DNA from: Chiua virens
Taxonomy: Eukaryota; Basidiomycota; Agaricomycetes; Boletales; Boletaceae
Assembly: GCA_019787685.1 (NCBI GenBank)
Contig: JAHNUO010000052.1
Span: 41,001 to 105,000, forward strand
Direction of reading: 5' to 3'
DNA length: 64,000 bases
Shown here: positions 22,155 to 62,944 of the stretch, piece after piece
Numbering within the stretch: position 1 is the stretch's first letter
Layout: the number at the start of each line of letters is the position of its first letter
Made by a program: the position numbers and the translations under genes
The notes under the pieces: generated by a model
Told to the model about the DNA's origin: nothing
The model's input: only the letters and a program-made list of their open reading frames with translations
The model's database searches: none

Positions 22155-25100
22155 TTGACACTGGTATCTTCCCATTCTTGTACCCATGTACTTGTAGCTG
22201 AGCTTTCGTCTCAATCTATGCAAATCCCTGTTAGGTTGAATGTTACCACTACCTCTCAAGATGTCGACACCCGTGCTCTTATTGACTCTGGAGCCGGGAT
22301 CAACTGCATCAACTGGCACTTCATCCAGAAACACAAGTTCCCAAAGGATCGCCTTCTGAAACATATCCTGGTGAGGAACATTGATGCTACAGCAAACAAA
22401 AATGATGATATCAAATTCACCACCACCCTCCAGATTGCTCTTGGCGGAGTACTCCAACGAATCAAGTTCCACATCATCCATTGTGGTTCTGAAAATGTAA
22501 TCCTCGGACTTCCCTGGCTTAAAGCAACCAATCCGATTATCAATTGGGTCGCCAAAACCATCACCATGTCCGCTCCAGAACCTGACCTTCCTCCCATCAC
22601 CACCGACAATCCCAAACACTCCGCCAAACTTGCCCATCCACCTCCAATCCAACCCATCTGCCATCTCGATGTCGATCCCATCTGGGACGGCAAACTATAT
22701 GACTACCTCGGCACCGAAACTGGGCATCGTTTCACTACCCAATCTGTGCAACACTCTGTCAACTGCGTTATGTGTGCAGGGCAACGCTTCGTTTAGACTA
22801 CTCAACCTGAGAAGCTCACCAATGCTACCGCCCTTGCGGCTGCAGCAAAGAAACCCAAGATCACCCTCCCTTTGGAATATTCGGAATTCGAATCCGTATT
22901 CGTGAAGGAACCCTTCAATCAGATGCCTCCCTCTAGGTCTTGCGACCATGAAATCCATCTGAAAGACACCTTTCAACTGAAGGTCAGAAAGGTCTACCCC
23001 TTATCCCCAATGAGCGCAAGGCCACTGACAACTTCATCGACGAACACCTTGCCAACGGCAAGATCCGCCCCTCGAACTCTCCACAAGCTTCCCCCTTCTT
23101 CTTTGTCAAAAAGAAGGATGGCAAACTTCGTCCTTGTCAAGATTATCGCTACGTCAATGAACATACCGTTCGTGACACCTACCCCCTTCCTCATATCTCC
23201 AACCTCATTGACAAACTACAGGACACCAAACTGTTCACCAAGTTTGATGTCCGATGGGGCTACAACAATGTTCGTATCAAGGACAGACACCAATGGAAAG
23301 CCGCTTTCATCACTCATCACAGCCTCTTTGAACCCACAGTCATGTTCTTTGGACTGACCAACTCACCCATGACGTTCCAATGCTTCATGAATGACTCCTT
23401 CCGTGATATGATCGCTGAAGGATGGCTTGTCATCTACATGGACAATCTCCTCATCTTCTCAGAAGACAAGGCCACCCACACTGAACGCACCACACGCGTC
23501 CTTGCTTGCATGAAGGAACTAGACCTTCACTTGAAACTTGAAAAATGCCACTTCGCTACCACCAAAGTAGAATACCTCAGCATGATCGCCCGACCAGGCG
23601 AACTCGCCATGGACCCTGTCAAAGTAGCCGGTATTGCAGACTGGCCTACTCCTACCAAGTTCAAGGATGTCTGATCATTCATGGGCTTCGCAAACTTCTA
23701 CCGTCGGTTTATCCCCGACTACTCGACCATCGCCCGACCTCTCATCAATCTGACAAAGAATGACACCCCTTGGACTTGGGGAACCCCCCAGATCACCGCC
23801 TTCGAACGCCTTAAGAAGGCCTTTACCTCCAACCTGGTACTCCGCTTCCCAGATACCTCTCGTCCCTTTGCCATCGCCATGGATGCCTCAAAATATGCAA
23901 CCGGCGGTGTACTCCTCCAGACCGATGAAAACAGTGACTGGAAACCCTGCTCCTACCTCTTGCAGTCCTCCAACACTGCAGAATGAAACTATGATATCTA
24001 TGACCGTGAACTCCTTGCCGTCATTAGATCCCTCAAAGCTTGGCGCCACCACCTCCGTGGAAGTGCACACCCAGTCACAGTCTTCTCGGACCACAAGAAC
24101 TTGACGTACTTTCGTCAACCCCAAAACTTGAACTGCCGACAAGCTCCTTGGCTCCTTGGCCTCGCTGACTTCGACCTTATGTTCTCCCATGTCCCCGGGA
24201 AACTCCTTGATGGTCCTGATGTGCTCTCCTGGCACCCTGACCACATCACCTCTGACTCGGACAATGAGAACGTCACACTCCTCCCTGATGACGTCTTTGT
24301 CAACCTCGTGACTTTGGACCTACAGTCTTTACTCACCAAATCCTCAGTCAACGACCCTTTGGTCTTAGACACCCTCAATGCCCTGGACGGCGGCCTCCTG
24401 TTGTTGTTCCACGCTTGCCTCTCTGACTGGAAATACGATGCTGGTGTCCTGACTTACCAGGGCTGCGTTTACATTCTGCCCAACTGGGAGCTTCGACAGC
24501 AGATTGTCGCTCATCACCATGATTCCCACTCTGCCAGTCACCCCGGTTTCTTGAAAACTTGTCAACTTGTGGCTGCCAAATTTTGGTGGCCTGGGCTTGC
24601 ATCCTTCGTCTGTTCCTACGTCACCAGTTGTGCCTCGTGTCAGCAACACAAGGTCAACACTCACCCGACCACTCCTCCGCTCTCTCCGATCCCCTCTGCT
24701 CTCTCTGATCCCCTCCACTCTCTCTGATCCCCTCTGCATGTTCCAGACCTTTCCAAAACGTTTCTGTGGATCTTATCATGGATCTTCCTGTCTCCACGGA
24801 GGGCTATGACTCTCTTATGGTCGTGGTCGACCATGGCCTTACAAAGGGGGTAATTCTTTGCCCCACTGTGAAAACCACCAACTCGGCAGGCATAGCCTGT
24901 CTCTTTTTCCACAAAGTTTACACCTGATTCGGCCTCTACGACAAAATCATCTCTGACTGTGGCCCGCAGTTCACTTCTGCATTTGCAAAAGAGCTCTCCC
25001 GGCTTATCAGATACCACCTTTCCCTCTCTACCGCCTATCATCCTCAATCTGACGGTGAGACAGAACGAGTCAACCAAGAAGTTGAGACCTATCTCCGCAT

Positions 25101-27477
25101 GTACTGCCAGAACAACCCGGAGAAATGGGCCGACTTACTCCCTATGGCCAAATTCGTGCATAACCACTGCCCCCACTCCATCACCGGCAAGTCGCCATTC
25201 TTCCTGATGATGGGATACGAACCCCGTCCTCTACCTGCTATCATCGCGGATACCAAACTCCCCGCCGTTGAGGAGCACCTCAAAACCCTCTCCGCCACTC
25301 ACGACGAAGCCCTTGCCGCTCACGAACTCACCCGCCAAGCTATGAAAGCTCGTTCCTTCTGAAAATTCAAACCCTTCTTGAAAGGAGATCAGGTTTGGTT
25401 GGAAGCCCGCAACTTGAAAAGGGAACTCATTTTCCCAAAACTCGCATCTTGCCAAGAAGGACCCTTCACCATCACAGAGGTCCTTTCTCCACTCACCTAC
25501 CAACTCCGCCTTCCCAAGACCTGGAAGATCCACCCAGTCTTCCATGCTTCCTTGTTATCGCCCTATTGCGAAACAGAAACCTACAGCCTGAACCTTCCGA
25601 AACTGCCACCTGACCTTATTGCTGGAGAAGAGGAATACAAAATAGAGCGGATCTTATGCCACACACGGAACCCACATAACCACAAGTTCCTGATCCGATG
25701 GAAAGGGTACTCCGCCTCTGATGACTCATGGGAACCCGAGTCCAACTTGGGAAACGCCAAGGACACAGTCGATGCTTATAAGCAGACCCATCCAAAGGAT
25801 TTCCCCTCCATCCGCTCCCTTTCCACCCAACCACCACCACAACCACCTCGCTTGCCGCTCAGACCCCCTCCACCCGTCTCTGTCAAAGCAATAATGACCT
25901 ACCGCTCTTGCTCGACCCCAGACTTTGAAAACGAAATCATCCACTCTGCCCCCATCTTCACCCCTACTGCATCCATCCCTCATCTCCCGCTTTCACCACC
26001 GGCGACCCCTGTCTCCAATGTCTCCACCCTCTCCACCAAGTCCTCCCTCACAGAGTCCACCTGACCCCCTTCTCCTGCTGTTTCAGCAGTTGCCTCCGCA
26101 GGATGGGGAGCTCCTTCTCAATGGCCTGTTCCTTCTGAGCGCCCTAGTCGCGTTCATTCTGTTGGAATATGTATAAACTGTTCTGACCATTCCAGGTAGT
26201 TCCCGTGTTTCTGAGGCTTTCGCTTCCGGAAGTTCCGAGGTTCCCATGCTCTGGAAGTACTGGAACGACTATAGACTTATTGTAGTACCTTAGCACTACA
26301 ATACAATTAGTTACAATCATCAATGCAGTACCATTACTCCTCACTACAGGTACAGCATAGCATTACAGTAGATATATAAACATGTTCTACTGTACATACA
26401 GAATAACAATCTTCTCTCTCTCCATCCTCCACAATATCGTCTTGAGCTTCACTATCAGGTAAGTTACCAGAGCAGTGACTCTGCCCTCGGGACAACTGGG
26501 TCCTATGGATCCAGTCTGTTCTAACACATTCTCCTCTCCAGGCGGTAGACCTCCCCTACCATTCCCACACCATCCGTTCTTCCTCTTCGACCCCAGAGTA
26601 CTTTCACCACATGTGCGAACTCATCCTAGACCCCGCGATGGCCTTTCCCATCGAGCATCACCTAGACCTGAACTCCCCCTTGAACGCCCTCTACTTGGCA
26701 TATCTCCAATGCAAACACCTTACCTTCGTCCAATCCGACCTACTTGGTCGTGATCGTCACTCCCACCTCCTCTCCACGGTTACCGGACAAATCCACAACT
26801 GCATCTGTGCTTACATTGAACACGTTCTCCATCAGATGCAGATAGGTGAATTTCTAGAGGATCTCCACCACTACCAAGTGGACCTATCCCACCGTATGAC
26901 TCCTCCCACACACCCGTCCTCGACCCCATCCACCTCCTCTGCTCCCTTTACTAAGGAAGAGATGATCGCTTGTAACCACACCAAGGCCGAACTGATGTTT
27001 TGGACCAGTCAGGTATCCCTCCCCGACGATCACCCCAGATGGCATGAAGCCTGCTTCAAATGCCGAAAACTTGGCCACATCCGTACCAAATGCAGTATGT
27101 ACCAATGCCCCATCTGTCTCACCTGGGCCCCCAGCCACATCCAATCCTGCTGCCCTGGACAACCTCCTAGGATACACACTCACATTCCCCTTGCCAACCG
27201 GCTTACTCCCATGGCCACTGGGGCTACTTGGAGAAGGCGATCCCCTCGCCCTGCCATCTCGTCCACATCGTCCTCTTTGACGAACTCATCTGCATCGTCT
27301 TGCCGCAACGGCCACTCCGCACTCCCTGTACTCCCACCTCAACAAGCCCGCCGCCATGTGCAACAATGTTCCGCGTCTCCTGATCAATGCTTGGCATCCC
27401 CATGTGATGACCCTATCGACAGTGAGGGCTACACCAATATCACCGGCAGTCCTGTCTGTGATGCGTTTGATTTCTAG
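22155..27477 (+). pseudogene. B1 pol: protease, RT, RNase H, integrase, chromodomain, zinc-knuckle tail
   Basis: Domains in order: protease (LIDSGAGINCIN, ILGLPWL); RT (KKKDGKLRPCQDYRYVN, FDVRWGYNNVRI, YMDNLLIF where the catalytic box is normally YMDD); RNase H (IAMDASKYATGGVL, YDRELLAVI); integrase HHCC and core (ISDCGPQFTS, DGETERVNQEV); chromodomain (EYKIERIL, FLIRWKGYSASDDSWEPESN, 25630-25770). After a TGA at 26062 the same frame continues, across the solo copia LTR, into an extension ending at 27477 with a second CCHC knuckle (CFKCRKLGHIRTKC) and a following CPIC...CC cluster. Stops: 22794, 23672, 23984, 24725, about 24925, 25360 and 26062; one frameshift near 23000. Confidence 0.9.
26160..26526 (+). 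repeat. solo copia LTR (LTR-G) inside B1
   Basis: 367 bp, TGTTGGAATATG to TCTGTTCTAACA, with a perfect 5-bp duplication CATTC (26155-26159 and 26527-26531). Near-identical to the copia 3' LTR at 30924-31262. It shows that copia was active after B1 inserted. Confidence 0.95.
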
Positions 27478-28465: not shown

Positions 28466-30862
28466 CCATTGGCCCGATTAAATTGGAAAACCCCTTATGA
28501 ATTGCTCACTGGACAGAAACCCTCAATCTCACACTTACGTGTTTTTGCATGTGGTGCCTATGTGCATCTTCCCAATGAGATTAGAATGGGCAAACTACAG
28601 CCCAAATCACAGTTGATGATCTACCTTGGTGTATTAGCAGGAAGTGAATCCAATTGGATTTTCATGCGTCCTAGCAATGCAATATTCACTTCTGCTCATA
28701 CCATTTTTAATGAGAACCTGTTTCCTCATTGTCCAGGGGCTCAGCCTCACAGGCCGGTAAGCAGCGCACCATGCAACCCACCTCCTCATCATGACCATCA
28801 CTCTGAACCAGAGAATTTCTCCTCTGATGAGTCTGATGCACCTCAATGTGCTCCTCATCATCCTGTCATACAAGCAAAAATACCAATGCAACCAGAATGA
28901 CCGGAAACACCAGAAGCACCGGAAGCACCGGAACACTTGCAAGAAACACCACCACCCCCAGTGACCCCTCCTCGTGCTCCTAGACTGCCTCCAGCAGCCC
29001 CTCCAGCTTTACCATGTCGCAATGAAAGGATTAAAAACCCTCCTAGATGACCTGGGAATGTGTATGGAGAACAGAGACACCCTTTGAAACAATTCAAAGC
29101 AATTGAGAGAGAATCATGCTGGAAGGAGATAATTGGTAAATCATCAAGTACTCCACATGAACCTGTAACACCAGACATCCCTGGTGGCCTCCCACCCTCA
29201 CCAACTCCATCAGAAGATGATGTAGAACGCCTGACCAGGGAAGGGGGAGATGCTTTATTGCATTATCTATGTGCTCATGCAGTTCCACTTGGAAACTCTG
29301 GAATGACCAAAGTCAACTATAGAGACTGGTCATACCATGACATACTTAAGCTCCCTCACCAAGAGCAAAAGCTCTGGCATAAAGCTTGTGAGGAAGAGCT
29401 ACAAATTATGGAAGATTGCAAAGTCTTTGAAGTCACAGACCATCCACCCAACCAAAAGGTTATAAAAAATAGATGGGTGTTTGATGTCAAATCAGATGGT
29501 TGCAAGAAAGCCTGCCTAGTTGCCAAAGGCTTCTCACAGGTGGAAGGGCTTGACTTTGATGAAATCTTCAGCCCAGTTGTATGCTTTGAGACAGTGTGAT
29601 GCATGCTCGCTCTATCTGCTCTCAATGATTGGCACATATCAGGACTTGATGTTTGATCTGCCTACCTATATGGAATACTAGAAGAGGAACTCTACATGGA
29701 GTGTCCTGAAGGGTTTGTGCCTCCCAACTCAAAAGGCAAAGTCCTCTGACTACTCCGAGCCATCTATGGCTTAAAACAGGCAGGTTTAGCCTGGTGGAGA
29801 TCTTTAGATCAGTCGATACAGGCACTAGGCTTCAAGTGACTTAGAACAGATGCTGGCCTCTTTATCTATCGCAATGGAAAAGATATTGTCCTAGTGATTA
29901 TCTACATAGATGACACCCTCTTCTGCAGACCCAGTAAAGCTTTAGTAGATAAGCTAAAGGCCACATTCATGAAGAAGTGGGAATGCCGTGATCTGGGTGA
30001 AACACATGAATTCCTCAGAATGAATATACATCGAGAAGGACATAGGATCCTCATAGACCAAGTCTCATACCTCAACAAAGTGCTTGAGCGCTTGAGCATG
30101 ACAAATGCCAAGCCTGCTCATACTCCTTTACCGCAGGGATATTATCCAGCAAAGAATGATGCCTCTGTCAATCTAGAGTTGCAGACGCGCTTCCAGACAG
30201 TGATAGGCTCATTAATATATCTTATGATTGGCACACGACCGGATATTGCCTATGCTGTAATGCAATTGGCTAGACAATCTGCAAATCCCTCACAGGAGCA
30301 CCTTGATAAGGCCTTGTATATATGCCGTTACTTAGCTGGCACTTGTGATTATTCACTTGTGTTTGATGGATCTTCTGGCAAAGGGATTATTGCCTTCACT
30401 GATTCTGACTGGGGTCAAGATAAGATTACCGGTCACTCCCAGACTGGCTTTTACATGAAGCTAGCAAATGGTGTTTTCCTCTGGAATTCACACCTGCAGA
30501 AAACCATAGCCCTCTCTTCTACAGAAGCTGAGTACATGGCTTTGAGTGATTGTTCTCGCCAGGCTGTATGGATTTTTCAAATGATAGAAGAACTCGGATA
30601 TGATCTAAAACCAATCCCGATCTGTGGTGACAATCAGGGATCACTATTTATAGCTCAGAACCCAGTCACTAAAAAGCATTCCAAACACATCCACATCTGC
30701 TACCATTTTGTACGAGATGCTGTGATGGTTTACAAACAAGTAGAGCTACTTTATGTCCCTGGAGATGACAATCCAGCAGATATGTTCACTAAAAACCTTG
30801 GACATGTCAAGTTCGAGAAGTTTTGCTCCTTACTTGGTTTGGAATTTTACGCGCCAGCCTAA
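28466..30862 (+). pseudogene. copia pol, 3' part: integrase C-terminus, RT, RNase H
   Basis: Resumes the copia frame after B1: TPYELLTGQKPSISHLRVFG-like block (here HLRVFACGAYVHLP), a Pro/Glu-rich linker near 28890-29020, then RT (WHKACEEELQIMEDCKVFEV, KNRWVFDVKSDG, LVAKGFSQVEGLDF, AIYGLKQAG, IIYIDDTLF with intact YIDD) and RNase H (AFTDSDWGQD, SSTEAEYMAL, GDNQGSLFIAQNP, PADMFTK). Stops, mostly TGA, fall at 28898, 29046, 29597 and several times in 29600-29850. The last 322 codons (29894-30862) are open. Confidence 0.93.
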
Positions 30863-31987: not shown

Positions 31988-32612
31988 AGAGTACGAGTAA
32001 GAGTGGATAGAAAAGATAGTTAAACGGATGAGGTGACTTAGAATGCAAGAGAAACAGGGATTGAAAGATGAAATTTTTATTTATGAACACAAATTTTATA
32101 GTCTCAGGTATTCCCAGGACTTTTACAGCGGATAAAGTATCAAATAAATAAGGAAAGCATACATATACACAGCCGTCTCTCATGGAGATCGACCCGTGAA
32201 AAGGAAAACAATGTTCTGTCAAGGTGGGATAATGTTTGATCCATGAGTCAATGGACTACCTTTAAAATGTTGTACGACCTGACTATCCATACCTTATAAC
32301 CAATTGGATATGTGTCGATAACACGGAACCGTCTGAAAAGAATCTAAGAAGGTACAAAATAAAATGGAAATTGGACAAAAGAGAGTTGATTAGTGTGCAT
32401 TGTGCGATCCCAATCGAGCAACCCAATTCGGTCACCTTGCATGAAAACATGTAGGAACAAAAAACAAAACATATGAATATGGGTTAGATCCACTCGGATG
32501 GACACGGGACTGCAACAGATGGATAGAACAATCAATATGAGCAGTCTGGGCATCCTGTAAACAAACCGGGAATATGGGTTTATCACCTCAAGGGGTCATT
32601 GACTCCTACACC
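31988..32612 (-). repeat. LTR-C, minus strand, probable 3' LTR of element D
   Basis: Inverted copy ending CTCCTACA at 32612, so its U3 start faces the D body, as a 3' LTR of a minus-strand element should. It lacks the R/U5 end of about 240 bp. It keeps the stretch deleted in the neighbouring plus copy. Confidence 0.8.
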
Positions 32613-32633: not shown

Positions 32634-32655
32634 CTGTCCTCAGTCAGTCACGTGA
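32634..32655 (+). promoter_or_regulatory. conserved CACGTG block upstream of the antisense gene in D
   Basis: Contains CTCAGTCAGTCACGTGA; the E-box CACGTG is at 32649-32654, 118 bases before the ATG. The same block occurs in A1 (37934-37955) and A2 (50463-50484, one change). It is the best conserved stretch of these leaders and a candidate promoter element for the antisense genes. Confidence 0.6.
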
Positions 32656-32771: not shown

Positions 32772-34025
32772 ATGTCTCTTACGTCCCTCGACTCCATCCT
32801 TGCATTTGCAGACTCTCCCGTCAATGAGGTGACTGTCAAGGTTGAGAAGGACCTCGCACAAGGAAAGGATCGGATTGTGGCTGTGGCACTGGCAGTGCCG
32901 GATGATAAGGAGGAGCTGCCAGAAGAACAGGAGGGATGGTGCCAGGAGTGGCAATGGGCTTTGGTACTTCGCGAATTTCTTAGGGTTGATCAGGTATTAA
33001 CTGAATTTGTAGGAGCATCTGAATACCGCCCTTAGCCAGGCTAAATCGCACAGTGTTTCCTGCTGCCTCAACGACGAGACGGTGAAGACGATGTGCAAAG
33101 CAACCACGTTTTTTCATAGATGGCAGGGGGAAGTAGCTCAACACACGGACGCTCAGAGACAACAAGCCGTCTCAGGCAAGGCAATGGGGTCCAGGTCATT
33201 CGGATCCGCTTTGCTTCAAGGTGATTTGGTCATGGGGACAGGCAAGACCGTCGAGGTCAAGGCTGGCAGGAAGCACAAGGTGAGACCGCTGTTACCTCAG
33301 ATATTTCGCTCTGTTAACAGTTCTTTCCAGCGGTCCGCTCGTAAGGCTGCTATGGACGAGAGCCCGTATGACGAGGAGGAGGAGGTGGTAGTCGAGGGTC
33401 TGCTTAAAATTCCAGATTGTATGGTTCACAACCCAGCATGCGAGATGTGCGCTCGGACTAGTAAGTTGTGCATGGGGATTCTGGGTCGCACTTGTGATCC
33501 TTGCTTCAAAGCCAAGGCCCAGTGCAACAAGTCAAGTGGTCGGGGTGCTAAGAGTGGGCCGTCAGTTGAGAAGTGGAAACCAGTGGATCCGAAGGCCAAG
33601 GCTGCAGGTAGGACCTCTCTCCTCGGATCACATCAACTCGGCTAATCTTTTTCATAGTGTTACCTGTTATCACGGTTACCATCCTGGCTTGCAAGGCTGT
33701 GGTCAATCCTTCACCTGCGTCTCCTCCAACACCGGATGCGCCCAAGCCGCTCTTTTACGAGTCCAAGCCCATGTCTCCACTCCCTTTTCAAGATGTGGGG
33801 GAAGAAGTAGAGTCGCCCAAGAAGAAGTCTAAGACTGGCTCGCCGTCTGAGCCTTACGATGGGGTGGACAATATCCAACGTGCTATTCTCTCTCTGGAGG
33901 CGAAGTTCCTGTTGACCAGGTCCTGCTTCAAGGAGCTCCAGGCCCATGCTTCGGCCATGGAATCGTATGTCACTTTGCAGCAGGGAGAACTGGATAGGGT
34001 AAAGCTGGTGTTTGGAATGTCTTGA
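32772..34025 (+). CDS. zinc-cluster/coiled-coil protein gene, antisense in element D, four exons
   Basis: Proposed exons 32772-32993, 33040-33279, 33331-33607 and 33658-34025 join to an uninterrupted 368-aa frame; the introns (46, 51 and 50 nt) have GT/AG ends. Exon 1 has an acidic, Trp-containing block (PDDKEELPEEQEGW) shared with the A1/A2 genes. Cysteines C191, C194, C201, C209, C212 and C219 (spacing 2-6-7-2-6) match the fungal Zn2Cys6 DNA-binding cluster, followed by a basic tract. A possible nuclear signal (SPKKKSKTGS) and a heptad-like C-terminal helix (about 315-368) follow. Likely a nuclear DNA-binding or regulatory protein; target unknown. It runs opposite to D pol, which ends about 625 bp away and converges on it. 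No stop or frameshift, unlike D pol. Intron 2 is also open in frame, so retention is possible. Confidence 0.75.
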
Positions 34026-34649: not shown

Positions 34650-37205
34650 CTAGTCGTGTGAGACATCGCCCTCATCTTCATCTTTGTACTCGACATCCTC
34701 AGCATCAGAGTGGTCGTATTCCTCATCACCTATTCCGGTCAGTTCAGTAACCGGAATAGTGATTTTTGTCCGTGGAAAGTAAGGTAGCAAGTGAAACGCC
34801 ACATACCTCAGTTTTGAAATGGCGCCGTCCAACTCGGCTAGCAGATACGATCCTCCAGTAGTCCTGCGAAGGACCACCATTGGACCAAGGTAGTGTGGCT
34901 TCATTTTCCAGTTCAGCTCCTTCTCAATCCATGTATTTCAAACCAAGACAAGGTCACCTGGACTAAACTCTTTCGTCCATATCTGGTTCTTGAATTGCGC
35001 CTCAAAATCTTTAAGGGACACAAACCGTGATGCCAAGACGCATTCTCAGATAGAATCGATATCTGTTTGACACTTTTGGAGCTGACGAGCTCTCCAAACT
35101 ATCAAGCTTTCACTAGAAACCGGGTCAGCATTAGGAACGGGAATGAGAAATGTTGCCTCTGATAAATCGAACGGAAAAAGTGGCTCAACACCATGTACCA
35201 TAAAGTACAGCGAAAGACTGGTTGCTTTGATTACAGTGATGCGTTTGGCCCAGAAAATGGAGTGAGTGATCGTCGGCCAGCGAACTTCCCCTCCCAGGGT
35301 ACTTTTGACAATGGCCTCCCAGACATCGAGATGACACCGTTCGATGATGCCATTCACCTGAGAGTTGTAAGGGGAAATCTGGATATGGTGGATACCGTAT
35401 CGGGTAGCCAAGTTGTCGAGTGCCTGTACAAATGCTGGACTGTTGTCCGTAATGAGCTCAGAGATGGCTCCCCAACAGCATAGGATATCTTCAAAAATAA
35501 AAGATGCAATGGAGGACACATTCTCGGATCGCAACATGTGCTATTCAGGATATGCAGTAAGAGTGCATTGGGCCTGAACTATATACCGGTATCCGCCTGA
35601 TCAAGGCATTACCATCGTGTCAATGTGGACTGTGTGAAATAGCCCGCCCATAACTGGTATGGTAGGAGGGATATGAAACTTCTGCATCTGTCGAATTTGA
35701 CACTCATGGCAGGTACAGGTATACCATTTGACGTCATCAATGAGCAGGGGCCACCAGAAATGTAGCAGTAACTGTGTCCGAACCGAGAAGACGCCTTTGT
35801 GTCCAAGGTCATCATGCATCTCCTTAATGAGTCCGTAACGGCGTTCTCTTGGCATGACTAACTGGTGTCGGCCGTGCGGTTCTCGACAACAGAGAGATCT
35901 GTTTAGAAGGAAGAACCGGGTTGTGGAATTAACGAAGGAGGTGAAGTTGTGATCTGTCAAATCTGGAGGATGGACCCAGTCATCGAGGAATAGGCGAATC
36001 TGATCAATGCGTGCTTCTTTTGCCAGAGCTTTGGGGGAACGGGGGATAACCGGTTCTGGTTCTGCCGGTTCTGCCGTAGGAGAAACGAATATGGATATGG
36101 ACTGGAAGGAATGTGTGATGGAATGTCTGTTAATGTGAGCAAACTGACCCACTGGTGACAACCGGTCGTTTAACAATGCCATAGAGAAGGAATATGCTTG
36201 GTCCAACCAATCCTCGAAATCATCCTGTTTGGGAGGGTCATTCTCAGATGGTGGACGACAAGAGAGTCTATGTTGGGTAGCAGGGACGTGAACAAGGCAA
36301 AAATTGAATAACAAAATGCCCGCGATCCACCTATTAATGGTTGTGTTGGGCTGGAGGTCTGGGTTATTGATCATACCCTTAACGTATTTCGCGTCAACTT
36401 CCACTGTGAAATTGGCAACACCGAACATGAATATCTGGACTGCTCGCAAAGCGCAGAACAATCCGTATAGCTCCAGTTTGGTCTGAGAGTAGCGGCTCTC
36501 GACCTCTGTGAGACTAATTGAACCGAAGCAGTTCAGGTACCTCTTGCTGTCATCTCCTTCCTGCGATAAGATATAGCCAACTGCGATGTACGACGTATCC
36601 ACTGCAAGGATAACCTCATTCCCGGATTTGTAATCCAGGCGACGAAGAGCAGGGGAGTGACAGATCACATCCTTGAGTCACAGCATAGCAATTTGTTGGG
36701 GTTCTCCCCATTCAAATGAGACGCTCTTTTGGGTCAAGTTGACCAATGGTCAAGCAATCGTAGCAAAACTTTTGATGAAAATTCGAAGAACACTGCACAC
36801 GCCTAAGAATCCACGTACTTGCGTAAGGTTCTGACACTCAGGCCAGTTGCTCTTTTCATGAGGGATATGGCCATCAGCCATACACTTGTGTCCAACTATG
36901 GTCGCGTCTGGTGCTGCAAGTATGAATTTCTTAGCAGATACCGTTACTCCGACATTTGTAGTCATTGTAGGATGCAATGGACTACAAGGAGGTGCTCCCA
37001 GATAAAGCAACAAATACCCGGGTTTTCTGCAATGGTTTCGTAAGAGCCATCCAGATTTTGGTAGCAGGTCGAGACTGTTTTGACCAGCAGATCATCTATG
37101 AATGGATAGGTATAACGAGGTATCTCGTCCTGCAAAATAAACGACATGTCGGCCTGATAGATTTGTACTGCATTTGTGTACCCCATGGGTACCATAGTGA
37201 GCTGG
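34650..37205 (-). pseudogene. D pol, C-terminal part: RT end, RNase H, integrase
   Basis: From 37205 down: RT (LTMVPMGYTNAVQIYQADM, YPFIDDLLVK with the DD pair), RNase H (ILAVDTSYIAVGYILSQE, TEVESRYSQTKLELYGL, VEVDAKYVKGMI), the integrase zinc finger (MHDDLGHKG, CTCHECQIRQ), core (LITDNSPAFV, NSQVNGIIERCHLD) and the C-terminal module KPHYLGPMVVLRRT, which is typical of a non-chromodomain basidiomycete Ty3 group. Stops near 35600 and 35540 and other changes break it. It joins in frame to the RT part above 43445, across element A1. Confidence 0.92.
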
Positions 37206-37910
37206 TGTAGAAAAGAAGTAATAGGTGATAAGAAGAAAGGTGGGGCAATAGGTTCGTCCCAAGGGGGGTTATATTTGAAAGAATGATGGATTCAGGTTTG
37301 TCTATGAGTCCTAGAGGCTGCTGGACGATCCGGAATGAAAAGTGGTCGATGTAAAAGTGTCTGCGTGGAGGCGAGGCAATGAGAGTATTGATTCGAGTAG
37401 ATGAGATGCAGAGGAATGATAGGATAAGGTAAAAGAGAAACTATCCAGCTCACTCACACATGGGAGAGTAAACAGGAGATCTCCTGAATGCAGAAAGACA
37501 ATATTTTTGTATTAGAGACATGGTTTTATAGTCCTGGGCATAACCCAGGACTGTTAAAGGTAATCTGACCCTAAGTAAGTGTACAGGATCGATGTAGGGT
37601 GAGTATGCTAAGAAGGAGTGTCAAACCTTGTAGATGACAAAGAAAGAAAAGGTGTTAGGATAGTAATGACCTGAATAAGGCCAAATCGAGTAGAACAAGT
37701 CAAATCGGATGGAGCGGAATACGTATGAAGGAATCAGATTGGATCATGTTGACTCAGATTGGACTTGGATTGGACTCGGATGATCTGTAAATGCTAGGAA
37801 TGAAACCGGGCTGGCACGAAGTCGATGGCGGATGAGACGGGAGGTGATATGACATGATGAAGAGCAAGGAAAATGTATCCTACAACCATAGGGAGTATCT
37901 AACTGCTACA
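37206..37910 (-). repeat. 3' LTR of A1 (LTR-A)
   Basis: 705 bp; promoter palindrome at 37530-37552 directly before the minus-strand TATAAA. Confidence 0.93.
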
Positions 37911-37933
37911 CCCGAGGGGAACTTGGACGCCAA

Positions 37934-37955
37934 CTGTCCTCAGTCAGTCACGTGA
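37934..37955 (+). promoter_or_regulatory. conserved CACGTG block in A1
   Basis: Same block as in D; CACGTG at 37949-37954, 110 bases before the antisense ATG at 38064. Confidence 0.6.
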
Positions 37956-38063
37956 TGTACACGCGAGCTGGGTTTGAAAACTGAACAATGCGCCACCGGA
38001 CATTACTTGAACACATCGCATCCACACTGCTCTTCCATTCTCTGTATCTTTTATACTTCCACT

Positions 38064-39966
38064 ATGTTGTATGCTGAGTCAATCCTCAAATATGTGGACA
38101 CACAGAAAGCGGTCGATCCATACGAACCACACGTCTTCGCCAAGACAGAGCTGAAGCATGCAAACAGACGCACCAGGGACTTTACGAAGACGATCCCGGA
38201 CGATAGGGAGGACCTGGCCGAGGAGCAGACGATGTGGCGAGAGGAATGGGATGAGATCCTAGTACGTAGTTAACCAATCACGTCTCGTCATGTACTAACC
38301 GCGAACTATTCGTTTTTTACAGAAACATCTCAGCAATTGCCTTCAACAGGCTCGGGATGCCGGCGTCGAGGCTTGGGTTGACAACGTGGTCACCCTCGCG
38401 ATTCAAGAGTCGCAGAAGGCGATGGAACGGTGGGACATGGCCAAGAAGCTACGAAAGGCAGCTGATGACGCAGTGAAGGCGACGGCGGCAGTGCACGAGA
38501 GTGAGGAATGAGAGGACGCAGGAGATGAGAAGACGTGAAGGAGGCACAAGGAGAAGGGGAAAGCACCAGAGGGGAGAGAGAAACGGAAGGTGCATGTCCG
38601 GATACATATCCAGTATGCATGATGCTAACTAGGTTATACACACAGTGTCCTATCGTGATGGAGAACAAGTTGGAGGGCGAGGATGAGCCGATCATCATCA
38701 AAAGCAGCATGGCCAAGAGCACGCTGCCGACCCATACCGATTCGCTGCGGGAGGAAGGTGACATTGACCATGAGGTGCCGTGCGAGCGGTGCGAGGGCGC
38801 AGGGTACCCCTGCTTTGGGGTTCCTAGTCGTGTATGCAGATGCTGCAGAAAGGACCGCCAGAGCTGCACGTATTAGCAGATGTGGCGGCAAGAGGGCGAA
38901 GACGGATGGGAAGGCAGAAGTGACGAGGGTCCCAGGTGAGTAATAATGCGTTGCTCATCAGTCTGCATGTATTAATACACGGTTTAGCTTCGCAAAAACC
39001 AGTGGTATTCGTACCACCGCACCGACTGTTCGCAGAACCATCCAATCCGGTGTAGGGAATAGGTATTCCCTGTGCTCGCATAGCACGTTTCCGCACCCTG
39101 TCGTCACCCGATCCCAATCCTGATCTGTCTGCATGTGCGAACTCATCCGGATTGCTGTATCCGTGCCCGTTTTGCCTCGGACTCTTTTATTTTATTTTTG
39201 ATGCTCCTTATTCATACTTAGCATTGGCTAGACCATGTCACGCAGCCCTTGCAGGGACGTTCGGGTGCCTCTTGAACTTTATACCGTATGAAAACCTTCT
39301 TTTGATTATTATCCTTACTTAGGACGAGTCTGAGGGTATTCCTGAGGACTATAAATTCACTGTATTGACAAAATACAGTAGCTTTTGCCCGTGTGCATCT
39401 GTCTCACATCATTTTCGGTCAACGTTCGTTTTCTCTCACTCTCCTCGTATTTTCTCGATCCAGATTGGACTGCTGTGTCCACTTTTCTATCCGTTTTAAT
39501 CTGGATTCGCCCTGGATTCATCTCGGACTACTCAAAAACCATTATTTGTCGTTCACCAACTCAGTGTTGTCCCTGGGTTGAACGGAATCACATTCCTTCA
39601 CCCTCTTTCTATTTCTTTCAATCCCCCTGAGTATTGCACTACAGCTGGGATATATTACCTTCACCGGTTCCGGATACGTGCAAGGCAAGGCCGAAGCTGC
39701 GTCCTAAGGCTAAGGCATCCATCGTGGACAACAAGGAGGCAGAGGATATGGGCCCCAAGAAGAAGCAGAAGATGTCAGGTCAAGACGGATCCACGTGCTC
39801 TCAGGTCGACGCGGCCAAACGGGCCGTGCTTGCTATGGATGCAGAGCTGCTTGCCTCCAAAACCGAGTACAAGACGCTCAAGATGCAGTTGGCGGATAAA
39901 GGGGCGGCAATCGCGTCGAAGGAGGCTGAGTTGGAGAAGGTGAAGGCCATACTATGGCTTCTGTAG
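38064..39966 (+). pseudogene. zinc-cluster/coiled-coil gene, antisense in A1
   Basis: Homologue of the gene at 32772. Exon 1 38064-38261 (MLYAESILKY; acidic block PDDREDLAEEQ), intron 38262-38322 with branch-like TACTAAC, exon 2 from 38323, exon 3 38646-38935 with the six-cysteine cluster (CERC, YPCF, RVCRCC, QSC), intron 38936-38987, exon 4 38988-39966 ending in a coiled coil (AELLASKTEYKTL, KEAELEKVKA). Broken: TGA at 38509, a one-base deletion just after the last cysteine that brings a TAG, and an LTR-E (39051-39663) in exon 4. It lies between gag and the 3' LTR on the opposite strand, starting 154 bp from the LTR edge (160 bp in D). Confidence 0.82.
39051..39663 (+). repeat. solo LTR-E in exon 4 of the A1 antisense gene
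   Basis: 613 bp, TGTAGGGAATAGG to TTACCTTCA, with a 4-bp duplication CCGG (39047-39050 and 39664-39667). A2 has the empty site at about 52812 (AATCCGGTTC), which confirms the boundaries. Confidence 0.95.
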
Positions 39967-40493
39967 ATAGAGTCGTCGTTCCCACTGTGTCGTAGTATAG
40001 CAATTGATCCGTGTCCTCTGTCCAATCTGGTTGCGATCCCTAATTCAGCAACGAATGGAAAGTGATTAATAAAACGAAATGTGAGTGAAAAGAAACAAGA
40101 ATAATTAATATGGGGTGCAGTTGTCCATCCAGCTTGTCTTCTTTGGTCATCTTTCGAGTCTATACCTGCACGAATCACTTCGCCGAGCGGCCGGATTGCA
40201 TATGACAGTATTTGGTTTTGGATGAGAGAAAAGAAGTAGTAGCGAAAGTGAATATCTAAGTAACCACGGTTATGATCGAAGGCAAAGGAACTGGCAGTAT
40301 ACGAATGGTTTCGTTGTTTTATTTTTCTGTCTTGTTGTATTGAAGGAAAGAGTGTATCATATGAATTGTCTGTGTGTTTAGCGGCAGTTTTTGTTGTTGT
40401 AGAGGCACCGGATCGAACCCTGGGGTGAGATAGAGAGTGCCGGTTGAATCCCGGGATAGATACACATACGTATCATATGGCTGACTGTATGTT

Positions 40494-40910
40494 TTATGCT
40501 TTGAGACGATGCTTGGACCATTGCCAAGTAGTCGTAACGTCGACTAACAACGGTGGATCATCAGGTTGAACTATAAAATCAATGAACCGATTAGTAATGC
40601 GCAGAAGCAGATCTGTATACAAGCAGATGGCATCGAAAGTACGCAAGGGAAGTGTTATATGTACTCGCAGATTAAGCAGTGACAGATGAGGAATAGGCGG
40701 ATTAAGTTTTGAAGGCTCCGCAGTGAAACCGGCTGCCAAGGTGGATGGTGAGAACGAAGGCAAAGCGGCCGTAACGGAAGACCGGATGTGAACGAGGGGA
40801 ACTTGAATGGTAAACAACAGGAACATGGATGAATGAATGCAAGAAGGAGGTGGATTAAAATGGGGTAAGGACTCGTGTGTAGGTAGAATGAGTAGTTGAA
40901 AGGTGCCCAA
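40494..40910 (-). CDS. unknown minus-strand reading frame in A1
   Basis: 138-codon frame downstream of gag ending in DVTTTWQWSKHRLKA. A homologous frame exists in A2 (53649-54239, with the same end) but is interrupted there. I do not recognise it. It occupies the place where pol would be and could be a real small protein or residual non-coding sequence kept open by chance. Confidence 0.3.
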   Translation of the reverse strand: MGTFQLLILPTHESLPHFNPPPSCIHSSMFLLFTIQVPLVHIRSSVTAALPSFSPSTLAAGFTAEPSKLNPPIPHLSLLNLRVHITLPLRTFDAICLYTDLLLRITNRFIDFIVQPDDPPLLVDVTTTWQWSKHRLKA

Positions 40911-41223
40911 ACGAACATTCAGATGTTTCGTGGGCCTTGGGAGTATGCAAACGGCAGCAATCCGGATACGACCGGTTAGGACTGTCTCAGCCAGCAGATC
41001 ATGATGATCCCTTACAAACTGGCTGACACTCGTTCATCCTAAAATGTTAGTCTTGCTCAGGTATGAAACAAAAATAGATAAAAATGAATGCTTGGGACGA
41101 TCAGGGTACAGCCGAGGCGGCTCATGTATGCTGCGGATCGAAACGATATTACCGGCCAGTAATGCCTGACTCGGTAATAGCGGTCCGCGGATGAAGCAGC
41201 TTTAGTAGGAAAAGGGAAAATGA

Positions 41224-42435
41224 TCAGCACGAATGGGGGATGGGTCGATAGGGAGCATTTGAGAGTGATTTTGGGGGAATGGGACGAGAGGCCGGATTGG
41301 ATGTGAGACCAAGTGCAGACACGACAATGGGGGTATTTCGTAGCGGGGAAATGGCAGGGCTGATTATGGGTTCGACCGATCCGTCATTTGGATCGTCCGA
41401 ATCACGATCGGTTTTGATTGGACGTGGTGCTGTGTCGTGTACTACCGGCCGAGTTGTTACCGAATATGACAGAGTGTCTGGTTCGGTGTCAAGTAGGTCA
41501 CAAGGACAGGCTGACTGCGTGTCCATGATGTTGAGAGGTGTCGTGATGATGGTTGTGCGAGGTGCAATCGGGATTGAGAGTGGTGAGACCTGTTCAGTTA
41601 ACACAGTTGAATCGATAATAAAATCCGTCAGTTCTTCCGTAACTGACGGTCGTGATGACAGAGCAACACATGGGTTGATGTCCGTAACCGGTGCAATAAC
41701 CGCAGAACTATATGAGTTAGTAGGCGGTCTTTGGGTTGATGGTGAAATAAAAACGGATGAAGACATGGGTCGGTTATACAGGAGCAGATTGTAAGTGTCA
41801 GGTAGTGAAAGTGAAGGTGATCGAAGGCAAAGCGAAGGTGTAAGTGTAAAATAAGAATGTGATCCTGATAAAAGAAACTCAGCTGCATCACGAACGTCAT
41901 TGAGCGCATACGAGGCATCCGGGTGGATATCCGGTCGCAGGATCACTAACCGTCGACGAATCTCGTACTGTAAATCGACTGGGAAACCACTAAGAAAAAG
42001 AAAGTCTCGATCAAGAGTTGCTATTCATTGTCGGGTGAGAAGGAATGATGATACTTTTGTAAATTCCCGAATATACTTCCCTAGCTCGTCAAGGGAGCGC
42101 ATTGACTTGGATCGATAGTGATTGACGAGATTTTGGAGATCCTCGAAATGGTACCGGTTATCGAGTTCCAGGTAGAGTGTCTTGACGGCTATAATGAATG
42201 CCTGCCAATCCAGCAGATTGGCCACCGCTTCAGGTAGGGTCTCCCAAAGGTCGTGTATACTGGGATCGACGTAATGCAATGCATACTGTACTTTCTTCGA
42301 TTGGGGCAGTCCAACACATGTGCAAAGAAAGTCGATGTCGTCTAGATATGGTTGGAGATGGGAAGCTTTTCTGCTGAAGGTTGGTGCATCCGGGGTGCCT
42401 CGATACAGCATCTGGATTATGCTAGCCGCGATCAT
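41224..42435 (-). pseudogene. gag of A1
   Basis: Minus strand. MIAASIIQMLYRGTPDAP, then LYLELDNRYHFEDLQN, SLDELGKYIREFTKVSSFL and, after an in-frame TGA near 42023, ATLDRDFLFLSGFP and a Ser/Thr/Pro-rich tail. It matches D gag in order and motif (RGTPNAPKF; DELGKYTQAFHKVSS; LYLNGFPPE), so A and D share a gag lineage. No zinc knuckle was seen. The same TGA is present in A2. Confidence 0.8.
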
Positions 42436-42720
42436 GATGGACGGAAATGGTGTCAGTTGATTGTCTGATGCGCTCGTGACCTTCGTAGCTAAGGGCAGAT
42501 GTATCGTGAGACACGGAGGAAGGGTTAGTAATGGTACAGGGGTGCGAGCAGGGTGAACGGGACCTAAAAGTCAGAAGGTATCATAACCGGATCCGAAAAA
42601 AAATAAGGTTTGTGAAACCAGATAAGGCACAAGTCGGGGACGGGTGTAGGTGAGGTGCACGGCAAAATGAAGGAACAGAAGTAGGAGAGCAAGATGTCCA
42701 AATCCGAACCTTCTGAAACC

Positions 42721-42740
42721 ACCCCTCGCGGTGGGCTCCA
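42721..42740 (-). promoter_or_regulatory. primer-binding site of A1
   Basis: On the minus strand, two bases after the 5' LTR end (TTTTCTACA), the sequence TGGAGCCCACCGCGAGGGG begins. A TGG start fits a tRNA 3' CCA end; the tRNA is not identified. A2 has the matching TGGAGCCCACCACAAGGGG. Confidence 0.65.
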
Positions 42741-42742
42741 GT

Positions 42743-43444
42743 TGTAGAAAAGAAATAATAGGTGATAAGAAGAAAGGTGGGGCAATAGGTTTGTCCCAAT
42801 GGGGGTTATATTTGAAGGAATGATGGATTCAGGTTTGTCTAAGAGTCCTAGAGGCTGCTGGACGATCTGGAATGAAAAGTGGTCGATGTAAAAGTGTCTG
42901 CGTGGAGGTGAGGCAATGAGAGTATTGATTCGAGTAGATGAGATGCAGAGGAATGATAGGACGAGGTAAAAGAGAAACTATCCAGCTCACTCACACATGG
43001 GAGAGTAAACAGGAGATCTCCTGAATGCAGAAAGACAATATTGTTGTGTTAGAAAAATGGTTTTATAGTCCTGGGCATAACCCAGGACTGTTAAAGGTAA
43101 TCTGACCCTAAGTAAGTGTACAGGATCGACGTAGGGTGAGTATGCTAAGGAGTGTCAAACCTTGTAGATGACAAAGAAAGAAAAGGTGTTAGGATAGTAA
43201 TGACCTTAATAAGGCCAAATTGAGTAGAACAAGTCAAATCGGATGGAGCGGAATATGTACGAAGGAACTGGATTGGATCGCATTGACTCAGATTGGACTC
43301 AGATTGGACTCGGATGATCTGCAAATGCTAGGAATGAAACCGGGCTGGCATGAAGTCGATGGCGGATGAGACGGGAGGTGATATGACATGATGAAGAGTG
43401 AGGAAAAGGTATCCTACAACCGTAGGGAGTATCTAACTCCTACA
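42743..43444 (-). repeat. 5' LTR of A1 (LTR-A)
   Basis: 702 bp, with promoter palindrome at 43067-43089. Confidence 0.93.
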
Positions 43445-45057
43445 CCGGTGCAGACCCATTGGACTGTTGAAAGTGGTGAGGTCGCGTGAATCCGGGTGTA
43501 ATGGATGTTGGTCATATTTGGCAAAATATTCCACAAAGTGTGTAACGAGGGGTGGGGTAGAAGAGTTGCAGATTGTGACTGTGTTCAGCAACTGCAAGTC
43601 GTGGACGAGTCATAGCAATTTACTGTCCTGTTTTAGGACGCAAAACCACCACGATCGATAGGCAGATGTCGAGGGTTTATACACGCCGGACGCAACTTGG
43701 TCCTTGATAATCTGGATTGTGACTGTGTTCAGCAACTGCAAGTCGTGGACGAGTCATAGCAATTTACTGTCCTGTTTTAGGACGCAAAACCACCACGATC
43801 GATAGGCAGATGTCGAGGGTTTATACATGCTGGATGCAACTTGGTCCTTGATAATCTGAATCGTGTCAGCCCACATTGCAGGGGGGACTGGGATGTTTCA
43901 CAGTATCCAAGGCATATGAGGTATGGTAGGAATTTTGACAGGGGGGAAATATTGTTCGAGGAGACGGCCCCGCTCGGTCAGTATCCAAGCAAAGGCAGTT
44001 TCATGTTCACGGACGATCCATCGGATTAATTTGACTTCTTCTGGCCATAGCCAGTTAGCCGGGTCAAGATCTAAAGCATCAGCGCATTCCTGTGTGAAAT
44101 GTTGTCCAGGGATAAAGTTGGGTGGATGAGTAGGTAAAGGTTTCAGTCCGGCAATAGGATCATCTGGCAGAGATCACATGATACGAAACTCCTCACCGGT
44201 AGGAACAACTACTGACTGAACTTTACGTGCTACCAGTTTATAAACCAGCGTGTGCAAAGTGGTATTATATGAATAAACGGAAGTGATAGCGGAAAGAACG
44301 TCCAGATTAGGGTCTGTACACGTGGATGATAAAAATGAGTAATCAGTCGAAGGCAGGACTGGTCCAATTGAAAGAGGCGGAAGCCATGTGTAAGAAGTTG
44401 GGAAATAGAGAGATGAAACGAATGATGGTTTTAAAAAAAACGAAACCAGATGTGATGCGGATAGAAGATTGAAATTTCCCTGATTGGTATATGGATCATC
44501 GATAGCTAAAAACCCAAGTCCATTTCGACGACAGTCCAATGGCTGTTACACTGTTTCTTTTCTCAGCAACGGGGGCATCCTTCCGTCCACACCCGAGTAG
44601 ACAAAGAGAATTGCTTCCCTGTGTTAGGGTCGTGCAGCGTAATCATCTGTGCTCCATCCGGGTAATCGTCAGTAGTCGCACTCATGAGGCAATGAAACAG
44701 TCGTCCGAGCAATAGGTCAAAGTTTGCCCTGGCCAGAATCTGGACCTGAAGCATCACTTTGCCTGTACCAAAGTCTACGGATAGGTTCTCCAGTACCCCC
44801 ACTGTTTTGTCAATGCTTGTGGTGGCAGGTGACATATTCATCATGTGATCGGACCGAATTGGGATACCGAGTGTCTCCCAGATACGTTTGGGCATTGTGA
44901 CAATCTTGGACCCAGAGTCCAAGACGCATCGGATGGGTCATCCAGATTCTCCTATCTTGGCCTCGATTGACCGAAGGGGAAGACTGTGATGTGCCACTAT
45001 GAGTCCATTGTCATTTCTGTTTATCTGGTCACCATATTCACGTTCAATTGCAAACGG
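43445..45057 (-). pseudogene. D pol, N-terminal part: protease and start of RT
   Basis: From 45057 down: HSLPLRSIEAKIGESG, a TGA, then the aspartic protease active site VLDSGSKIVTMP and FDLLLGRLF; then KVQSVVVPTGEE and the RT start (PLPTHPPNFIPGQHFT, WPEEVKLIRWIVREHETAFAW, YRSWWFCVLKQD). A 144-bp stretch is duplicated in tandem (43571-43714 and 43715-43858). The frame is cut at 43445 by A1. Confidence 0.88.
43571..43858. repeat. 144-bp tandem duplication in D RT
   Basis: Units 43571-43714 and 43715-43858 differ at only a few positions, all transitions. 144 bp is 48 codons, so the frame is kept, but part of RT motif 1/2 is repeated and the duplicated part contains a stop. Confidence 0.9.
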
Positions 45058-45673
45058 TGAAGGTAATAAATCCCAGCTGTAGTGCAATACTCAGGGGGAT
45101 TGAAAGAAATAGAAAGAGGGTGAAGGAATGCGATTCCGTTCAACCCAGGGACAACACTGAGTTGGTGAACGACAAATAATGGTTTTTGAGTAGTCCGAGA
45201 TGAATCCAGGGCAAATCTGGATTAAAATGGATAGAAAAGCAGACACAGCAGTCCGAACTGGATTGAGAAAATACGAGGAGAGCGAGAGAAAACAAACGTC
45301 GACCGAAAACGATGTGAGACAGATGCACACAGGCAAAAGCTACTGTATTTTTGTCAATACAGTGAATTTATAGTCCTCAGGAATACCCTCAGACTTGTCC
45401 TAAGTAAGGATAATGATAAAAGAAGAAGGTTTTCGTACGGTATAAAATTCAAGAGGCACCTGAATGTCCCTGCAAGGGCTGCATGACATGGTCTAGCCAA
45501 TGCTAAGTACGAATAGGGAGCATCAAACATAAAATACAAGAGTCCGAGGCAAAACGGGTGTGGATACAGCAATCCGGATGAGTTCGCACAAGCAGACAGA
45601 TCAGGATCAGGATCGGGTGACGACAGGGTGCGGAAACGTGCTATGCAAGCACAGGGAATACCTATTCCCTACA
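45058..45673 (-). repeat. solo LTR-E in D
   Basis: 616 bp on the minus strand with flanks ACGG (45054-45057) and ACAG (45674-45677), a 4-bp duplication with one transition. It separates D gag from the protease. Confidence 0.9.
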
Positions 45674-46078
45674 ACAGGTCAAGACCCGTGAGCTCGTTTA
45701 CCTGCACAGCATGAGTGGATAGGTTAGTCATGACTTGTTTAGTGGTAGTAAGGTCCCGAAATTGTTTTTGGAACTCTGGTGTGACCGCAAATAAATCTTT
45801 AACGGGCACGGGTATACTTGTATCCAGGACTCGGTCCAACACTCATTGTGGAGCTGAGTCATCCTCGAGCAGAAACAAGTACCTATATTGCGTTGTAGGG
45901 TTAAACGAGGGGTTAGTTTGTGCTGCACGGAAAGGAGGATTACTTTTGTCATTGGCATGACTAGAAGAGGAAGAACCGGACGGTCCAGCTATTGTGGATG
46001 CGGGTGCGGGTGATGAGGCCAGTGGGGAGTGTGATGGCATAGATGATGATGATGATTGGGGGTTAGCTTCTTTGGCAG
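45674..46078 (-). pseudogene. D gag, C-terminal part
   Basis: From 46078 down: AKEANPQSSSSS and a Ser/Pro/Ala-rich linker, then VLDRVLDTSIPVPVKDLF and TPEFQKQFRDL, a region that precedes the protease in related Ty3 elements. One in-frame TGA near 45845. Confidence 0.75.
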
Positions 46079-49376: not shown

Positions 49377-49725
49377 CCAGCCCATTTTTGTTTTCTTCAG
49401 CAACATATATTCCTTTGGTAGTATCATGCTCCAGGTGAGTTTCAATGCTTCCCTAGTTGAACAAGCGAGGCTGACGTACTGTCTCCACACGATGCTTGTC
49501 TTCTTGATATACAGACCTTGACCAGAAAAATACTGTATCATTACCTTGTGGACGGCACTGTCATCCTCAACATATCCCAAGGAGAATATCCAAGGCAGCC
49601 CAAGAGCAGTGTCATGATGGACACCCAGTGGGAGTTCATGATCTGGTGTTGGTTGTTTGAGCTAATAGATCATCTGCCAGATGTGGACATTTTGATGTTT
49701 GTGCACAAACAGCTGATCAATGTGG

Positions 49726-50439: not shown

Positions 50440-50462
50440 CCCGAGGGGAACTTGGATTCCAA

Positions 50463-50484
50463 CTGTCCTCAGTCGGTCACGTGA
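50463..50484 (+). promoter_or_regulatory. conserved CACGTG block in A2
   Basis: CACGTG at 50478-50483, 110 bases before the position of the (lost) antisense start codon. Confidence 0.55.
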
Positions 50485-50776
50485 TGCACGCGCAAGCTGG
50501 GTTTGAAAACTGAACAATGCACCACCGGACATTACTTGAACACGTCGCGTCCACACTGCTCTTCCATTCTTTTTATCTTTTAAACTTCCACTCTGTCGTA
50601 CACCGAGTTGATCCTCAAATATGTGGACACACAGAAAGCGGTTGATCCATATGAACCACGCATCTTCACCAAGACAAAGCTGAAGCATGCGAATGGACAT
50701 GCCAGGGACTTTGCAAAGACAATCCCAGACGATAGGGAGGACCTGGCTGAGGAGCAGATGATGTGGCGAGAGGAAT

Positions 50777-62914: not shown

Positions 62915-62944
62915 TCAACCAAGCTTGTTTAACACTTTTTTAAA

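Follow-up and report, generated by a model that had tools for sequence, protein, structure and literature searches.

A probable spliced antisense gene for a Zn2Cys6-like protein in a Ty3/Gypsy retrotransposon lineage of Chiua virens

Introduction

Antisense accessory genes, encoded on the strand opposite to gag and pol, are already known from long terminal repeat (LTR) retrotransposons. Here we describe such a gene in element D, a Ty3/Gypsy element found in a 64,000-nucleotide stretch of the genome of Chiua virens (GenBank assembly GCA_019787685.1, contig JAHNUO010000052.1, positions 41,001 to 105,000), hereafter the window. The antisense gene brtn of Boty, a Ty3/Gypsy element of Botrytis cinerea, reportedly goes back to Zhao et al. 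2011, as cited in later papers. The passages that cite it (PMC7264820, PMC8365987, PMC4227169) mention neither introns nor a six-cysteine (Cys6) cluster, and brtn and the D gene were compared by description. According to the relevant part of PMC7264820, brtn occupies the same place in a fungal Ty3/Gypsy element as the D gene. Boty-like elements have a gag-pol with a chromodomain in the part of PMC4227169 dealing with them, whereas Pfam found none in the D pol open reading frame (ORF) of copy L018. A Monilinia transcript similar to BRTN is mentioned in a passage of PMC5987419.

In plants, antisense accessory genes include Grande gene23, RIRE2 and Retand TRP28, as described in sections of PMC7264820 and PMC11963269. 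Like the D gene they are antisense, lie between pol and the 3′ LTR and occur in most copies, with an own promoter in the case of Grande. In the same sections a nuclear or DNA-binding product is suspected and some Retand elements are non-autonomous; for TRP28, DNA binding is suspected and antisense ORFs are given for 97% of Retand clusters (PMC11963269). The word “intron” is absent from the main texts of PMC7264820 and PMC11963269. The plant products differ from that of D, being TRP28, SMC and others, compared with a Cys6 cluster plus helix in D. HBZ of HTLV-1, presumably a bZIP protein of a human retrovirus, is used here as a parallel, and no relation to the D protein is claimed. Passages in PMC7264820 and PMC11963269 describe HBZ as a nuclear regulator with its antisense promoter in the 3′ LTR.

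Against the literature compared, the gene differs from those of these systems by three conserved introns, a Zn2Cys6-like cluster plus helix, a shared upstream block, and occurrence in copies without pol. Among the papers listed by literature searches at title and abstract level, in which subscription journals are mostly absent, none reported an antisense gene that is both spliced and Zn2Cys6-like in an LTR element of a fungus. A preliminary description of this DNA held that retrotransposons rarely carry an extra gene, which is too strong, as antisense genes are found at the same place in plant elements and in Boty. The functions of such genes are still described as unestablished in the part of PMC7264820 that treats them. 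The DNA-binding-like layout, the conserved introns, the discrete 21-bp block and the occurrence in two families, in the copies read one with and one without pol, make the purpose of an antisense gene testable in a fungus in culture or in yeast.

Results and discussion

Element D and its antisense gene

By its sequence, D is classed as a Ty3/Gypsy LTR retrotransposon on the - strand, with an extra predicted gene on the + strand between pol and the 3′ LTR. This is the arrangement of antisense accessory genes termed aORF-3R, that is, antisense between pol and the 3′ LTR and present in most copies. The parts of the element in the window are:

32772-34025, + strand: D antisense gene; 4 exons, 1104 nt, 367 amino acids (aa), exon phases 0/0/1
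31989-32612, - strand: segment of the D 3′ LTR, which measures 884 bp in copy L016
34650-37178, - strand: 3′ portion of D pol, covering integrase, RNase H and the end of the reverse transcriptase (RT), with stops and frame breaks; domains taken from the sibling copies L016 and L018
43902-45057, 45673-46074 and 46950-48517 (span 43902-48517), - strand: remaining D element, beyond the A1 insertion and interrupted by solo LTRs

We consider it very probable, on sequence grounds, that the antisense gene is a real, protein-coding and spliced accessory gene of this Ty3/Gypsy lineage. The searches of the assembly (48.3 Mb, 136 contigs) score the best candidates only, and copy totals are therefore lower bounds. 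At least 26 near-full-length copies of the gene were found, of which 10 are open across all four exons and 16 are broken. D pol was found within 8 kb of 25 of the 26 listed copies of at least 1 kb, in each case antisense and to the same side, with a median gap of 1578 bp; the sole copy with none is C5:1928843. Seen from the other side, 27 of the 30 listed D pol copies of at least 700 bp have a gene match within 8 kb. A D LTR lies about 160 bp ahead of the ATG in 24 of the 25 copies examined, the exception being L030. The position and orientation given in the preliminary description thus recur in 25/25 copies with a nearby pol. That description had also made its case depend on other elements in the genome having the gene in the same position, which 25 of the 26 D copies do. 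As judged from the sequences, the observation is beyond chance, given at least 26 near-full-length nucleotide copies and the homologous protein of a second family (E 8e-26).

In the window, A1 and solo LTRs interrupt the D copy. In the sibling copies the order is gag (DUF4100), protease, RT, RNase H, integrase zinc domain and core, about 640 bp, the antisense gene and the 884-bp LTR. Pfam matches in the ORFs of L016 and L018 are DUF4100, Asp_protease_2, RVT_1, RT_RNaseH_2, Integrase_H2C2 and rve, with RVT_1 (28.5 bits, cut-off 29.6) and rve (29.4 bits, cut-off 32.6) both narrowly under the threshold. In these two copies the interval between pol and LTR is free of sense ORFs of at least 120 aa. 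The LTRs of L016 differ at just 15/884 sites, and this copy is therefore fairly recent.

Three further observations concern D LTRs. Beside the gene is a 269-bp inverted repeat (31291-31559/32342-32610), 100% complementary and made of two opposed D LTR pieces; a recent rearrangement or conversion is one reading. Two D-type LTRs, at 46078-46948 and 48518-49399, are inverted relative to D and lie inside it or at its edge, the first resembling a solo LTR insertion within D. In the joined L016/L034 copy (1-255 against 8847-9101), internal element sequence runs past the 3′ LTR, which suggests tandem elements with a common LTR.

Gene model

The exons form a single frame from the ATG at 32772 to the TGA ending at 34025, as noted earlier:

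32772-32963, + strand: exon 1, starting with the ATG
32964-33012, + strand: intron 1 (corrected), GTACTT...TTTGTAG, in the same alignment column as the family A intron
33013-33279, + strand: exon 2, 267 nt, the length of family A exon 2
33280-33330, + strand: intron 2, 51 nt, within 2 columns of A intron 2 and in the same phase
33331-33607, + strand: exon 3, carrying the Cys6 cluster
33608-33657, + strand: intron 3, within 3 columns of A intron 3 and in the same phase
33658-34025, + strand: exon 4, running to the stop

The four-exon model of the preliminary description stands in its frame and in introns 2 and 3. Intron 1 of that model (32994-33039) leaves the frame intact but lies about 30 bases off, and GT 32964/AG 33012 takes its place. 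The corrected intron is also in frame and gives the join EWQWAL|EHLNTALSQA, compared with EWDEIL|KHLSDCLQQA in family A. Because the join, the length of exon 2 and the alignment column all agree with family A, intron 1 is best placed at 32964-33012 by homology.

The splice sites are kept across the near-full-length D copies. For introns 1 and 2 the GT is present in 25/26 copies (lost in L031 and L033, respectively) and the AG in 26/26, and for intron 3 both are present in 26/26. Since intron 2 measures 51 nt, a multiple of three, and has no stop, its retention is possible, and read-through may be an alternative form of the predicted gene.

A homologous gene in family A

Two elements of a second family, A1 and A2, lie in the window:

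37205-43450 (approximate ends), - strand: element A1; LTR, antisense gene, gag, LTR; pol not found
38064-38261, 38323-38589, 38646-38935 and 38988 on (exons; span 38064-39966), + strand: A1 gene homologue, with internal stops
49725-56660 (approximate ends), - strand: element A2; layout as in A1; pol not found
50593-53121, + strand: A2 gene homologue; ATG lost, two long insertions, internal stops

The preliminary description placed homologues of the D gene in A1 and A2 at the same position and in the same orientation. This was borne out by homologous pieces on the + strand (A1: 38076-38264 and 39658-39951; A2: 50713-50775, 51805-52083 and 52894-53106) and by the cluster motif, found by pattern at 38781-38867 in A1 and 51928-52014 in A2. 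The D and A proteins share 26% identity over 379 columns (BLASTP, E 8e-26), whereas a blastn comparison of the D gene with A1 and A2 gave nothing at E 1. Because protein homology persists where blastn finds no match, it is the protein rather than the DNA that has been held by selection. Both genes have three introns in phases 0, 0 and 1, with column offsets of 0, 2 and 3. CTAAC-type branch sites occur in A introns 1 and 2 and are lacking in A intron 3 and in D introns 1 and 2. The best explanation of the sequences is that the gene has been inherited with the element since before the split of D and A, and the introns suggest that it has not gone through a spliced RNA of its own since then.

Variation among the D copies is lower at codon positions 1 and 2 (0.299 and 0.321) than at position 3 (0.432; Fisher p 8e-5), and position 3 varies like the introns (0.433). 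The dN/dS ratio was discarded as proof of coding, being unspecific: control frames and the opposite strand gave 0.48-0.80.

The gag of A1 and A2 is 43-44% identical to that of D (E 2.7e-23 and 1.1e-19), and neither element showed a match to RT, RNase H or integrase above the chance level. With gag and the gene present and pol undetected, the A1 and A2 copies are thus non-autonomous. An apparent RNase H/integrase match of 18-20 residues in A1 and A2 lies at the start of the L018 frame and is read as the solo LTR interrupting that frame, not as pol. Of the 36 listed A exon 3 region matches of at least 320 bp, 28 lie within 8 kb of A gag, each in the arrangement expected and with a median gene-to-gag gap of 1768 bp; the other 8 of the 36 have no listed gag. 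Nine of the 38 listed A gag copies of at least 700 bp have no nearby gene match of this kind, although two of the nine, C88 and C16:610544, have other gene pieces close by. A gag copies lacking a gene match include C14:115298, C79:25422 and C30:306413.

All five A gene copies that were translated are damaged. A1 and L039 have several stops, A1 also an insertion, and L038 has one stop; A2 and L037 have lost the ATG and have insertions and stops. Exon 4 of the A1 gene is interrupted by a solo LTR. Solo-LTR-like copies of one sequence are found at 39050-39657, 52100-52720 and 45052-45673, and this sequence sits at different points of the antisense gene, in exon 4 in A1 and in intron 3 in A2. Furthermore, a primer-binding-like stretch CTCGC(A/G)GTGGGCTCCAGTT adjoins the 5′ LTR in D (L016) and in A1 (e.g. 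42720-42745 of the window), and the two elements may use the same tRNA primer.

A shared block upstream of the gene

Just inside the LTR, D and A have a short DNA stretch in common:

32635-32655, + strand: 21-bp block TGTCCTCAGTCAGTCACGTGA, 116 bp upstream of the ATG; candidate element of an antisense promoter

The pattern TGTCCTCAGTCNGTCACGTGA occurs at 68 places in the 48.3 Mb at up to 2 mismatches, compared with 0 for the reversed control. Of these places, 66 lie 79-151 bp ahead of a listed gene start on the coding strand, using 67 starts from the matches listed (31 D and 36 A, of which two A matches start only at residues 9 and 14). The distance is 116-118 bp for 30 D genes; in A it is 108-109 bp for 34 of 36, and 79 and 151 bp for the others. 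The two unpaired places are C13:625958, with an A fragment 0.7 kb away, and C14:641040, with D pol 1.1 kb away.

The block, which contains CACGTG, includes the palindrome TCACGTGA, which we take to be a site of basic helix-loop-helix (bHLH) type. Its mismatches are often CACGTG to CATGTG or CACATG, a type that would match the decay of methylated CpG. The block lies 22 bp from the window LTR, and a role in reverse transcription is an alternative to a promoter role. Gal4-type CGG/CCG sites were also considered and showed no enrichment in the LTRs.

The predicted protein

Three features of the protein were located in the D gene:

33439-33525, + strand: C-x2-C-x6-C-x7-C-x2-C-x6-C cluster, from a pattern search; the six Cys are common to D and the compared A copy
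33816-33833, + strand: PKKKSK, a basic stretch resembling a nuclear localization signal (NLS); PKKKQK in A1 and A2
33858-34010, + strand: predicted single 51-residue helix, a coiled-coil candidate; residues 67-117 of the exon 4 model

The Zn2Cys6 domain has the spacing C-x2-C-x6-C-x(5-12)-C-x2-C-x(6-8)-C, and by pattern search D, A1 and A2 in the window all have it. The NLS-like label for PKKKSK/PKKKQK is one that we assume. In the AlphaFold2 (AF2) model from three rows, the block-mean confidence (pLDDT) of the helix is 90-95 over residues 71-120 and 61 over residues 61-70. The cluster, modelled from two rows, forms two short helices, one per C-x2-C, with a best-model pLDDT of about 80 at the cluster; the mean pLDDT is 60.4 in the best model and 41-46 in the other four. 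A Foldseek search with the cluster model at E up to 10 returned only five chains, from Pho7 (two), Gal4, Put3 and CBF3, all of which presumably are or contain Zn2Cys6 proteins. The point of this weak result is that all five chains are of one kind, though each is non-significant.

The preliminary description called the protein Zn2Cys6-like, a label that holds for the spacing, the modelled helices and the kind of chains returned, but none of these chains is significant. In the profile comparison with Zn_clus (PF00172) that it proposed, D scored 7.6 bits, far under the cut-off of 21, and the family A member had no match. A genome search with Zn_clus listed 27 rows above the cut-off, none at any D or A gene. 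Together with the Plavaka and DUF4100 matches, these rows agree with a fungal genome, probably that of a basidiomycete. No relatives were found in a protein database that may be poor in fungi (earlier splice model, E 1e-3; D+A alignment, E 1), and a sequence search of the PDB gave a single match at E 1.3.

We consider it rather likely that the D gene encodes a Zn2Cys6-like DNA-binding protein. It resembles the Gal4-type Zn2Cys6 factors in Cys spacing, in a possibly dimerising helix and in the weak fold matches to Pho7, Gal4 and Put3. It differs from them in being under the Zn_clus cut-off, in being encoded by a retrotransposon and in having the basic residues mostly in the second half of the cluster.

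Possible roles of the gene

We infer a nuclear regulator role for the D protein. The antisense gene would have a promoter of its own near the CACGTG block, immediately internal to the 3′ LTR, and be transcribed against the genomic RNA; the introns would persist because splicing acts on the antisense transcript alone, sparing the template of reverse transcription. The product would be imported into the nucleus, dimerise via its C-terminal helix and bind DNA via the Zn2Cys6-like cluster in the manner of Gal4. It would regulate its own element, through the LTR or through the promoter of the antisense gene itself. Each family would have a diverged version, which would explain the gene in the pol-less A1 and A2. 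As a whole, a spliced accessory gene encoding such a nuclear regulator is the best explanation, with a probability of roughly 0.5. That the product regulates its own element is possible, at somewhat less than even odds. The fullest version, a retrotransposon lineage encoding its own Zn2Cys6-type factor in a three-intron antisense gene with a promoter of its own, the factor having co-diverged with the LTR of each family and a private copy having controlled expression even in pol-less elements, is put forward tentatively.

Several results weigh against this explanation. The Zn_clus threshold is missed by a wide margin, the Foldseek matches are individually below significance (best E 0.56), the codon-position signal in D weakens when CpG-type sites are removed, and the broken frames in 16/26 copies are what a gene acting through its RNA could tolerate.

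Among the alternatives, the one that survives best is that the D protein is a nuclear accessory factor of retrotransposition (a chaperone, or a factor in import of the pre-integration complex or in target choice) and not a regulator. The basic PKKKSK/PKKKQK is retained in D, A1 and A2, A1 and A2 have gag and the gene while pol is undetected, and nuclear import is discussed for plant antisense proteins in a section of PMC7264820. However, a partner of pol could come in trans, in which case A needs no diverged copy, and the cluster model weakly favours a DNA-binding fold; we regard this role as unlikely.

The protein could instead be aimed at the host, countering silencing or shifting host genes to the element's gain. 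Against this, the CpG-type changes seen in many copies suggest that marking or mutation of the elements by the host is still going on. A Zn2Cys6-like layout, as in fungal transcription factors, is weakly in its favour. Also in its favour is a solitary relative at C4:1688138-1688662, a 175-aa open frame with a cluster 48% identical over about 45 aa and zero match to the window LTRs in the 5 kb read. This relative may belong to the host or be a copy left stranded, and a host target is decidedly improbable.

That the antisense RNA and not a protein acts, pairing with genomic RNA and damping the element (copy control or double-stranded RNA silencing) with the frame as a by-product, agrees with the strong conservation of the upstream block as DNA, and RNA regulation is discussed for plant and Drosophila elements in a passage of PMC7264820. 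D and A, on the other hand, share a protein but no blastn similarity, and the frame, the Cys residues and the intron phases are kept, none of which an RNA would need; the odds of this explanation are poor. Recent capture of a host gene as a passenger is very improbable: the single-copy C4 relative is continuous at the place of D/A intron 3 with exons 1-2 undetected, but two families at 26% identity share intron phases and upstream block, and the gene is found with 27/30 listed D pol copies.

Other repeats

Two repeats in L040 (1782-2449/3370-4012) were considered as LTRs of a mini-element; they are 66% alike and were taken as duplicated host sequence. A reductase-like frame at L040 375-665 was labelled by eye only. 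For a sister Gypsy lineage (14 rows, RT 46-51% identical; e.g. C10:1706007), the rows compared listed neither the gene nor the block within 10 kb.

The window also holds other elements:

22952-26064, + strand: second Gypsy element, with RT, SH3_Tf2-1 and chromodomain
29840-30862, + strand: Copia-type remains with RT (RVT_2)
15093-15986, - strand: Plavaka transposase match
62905-63821 and 59723-59972: arrays of three 286-nt repeats and of three 102-nt repeats at 74-nt spacing
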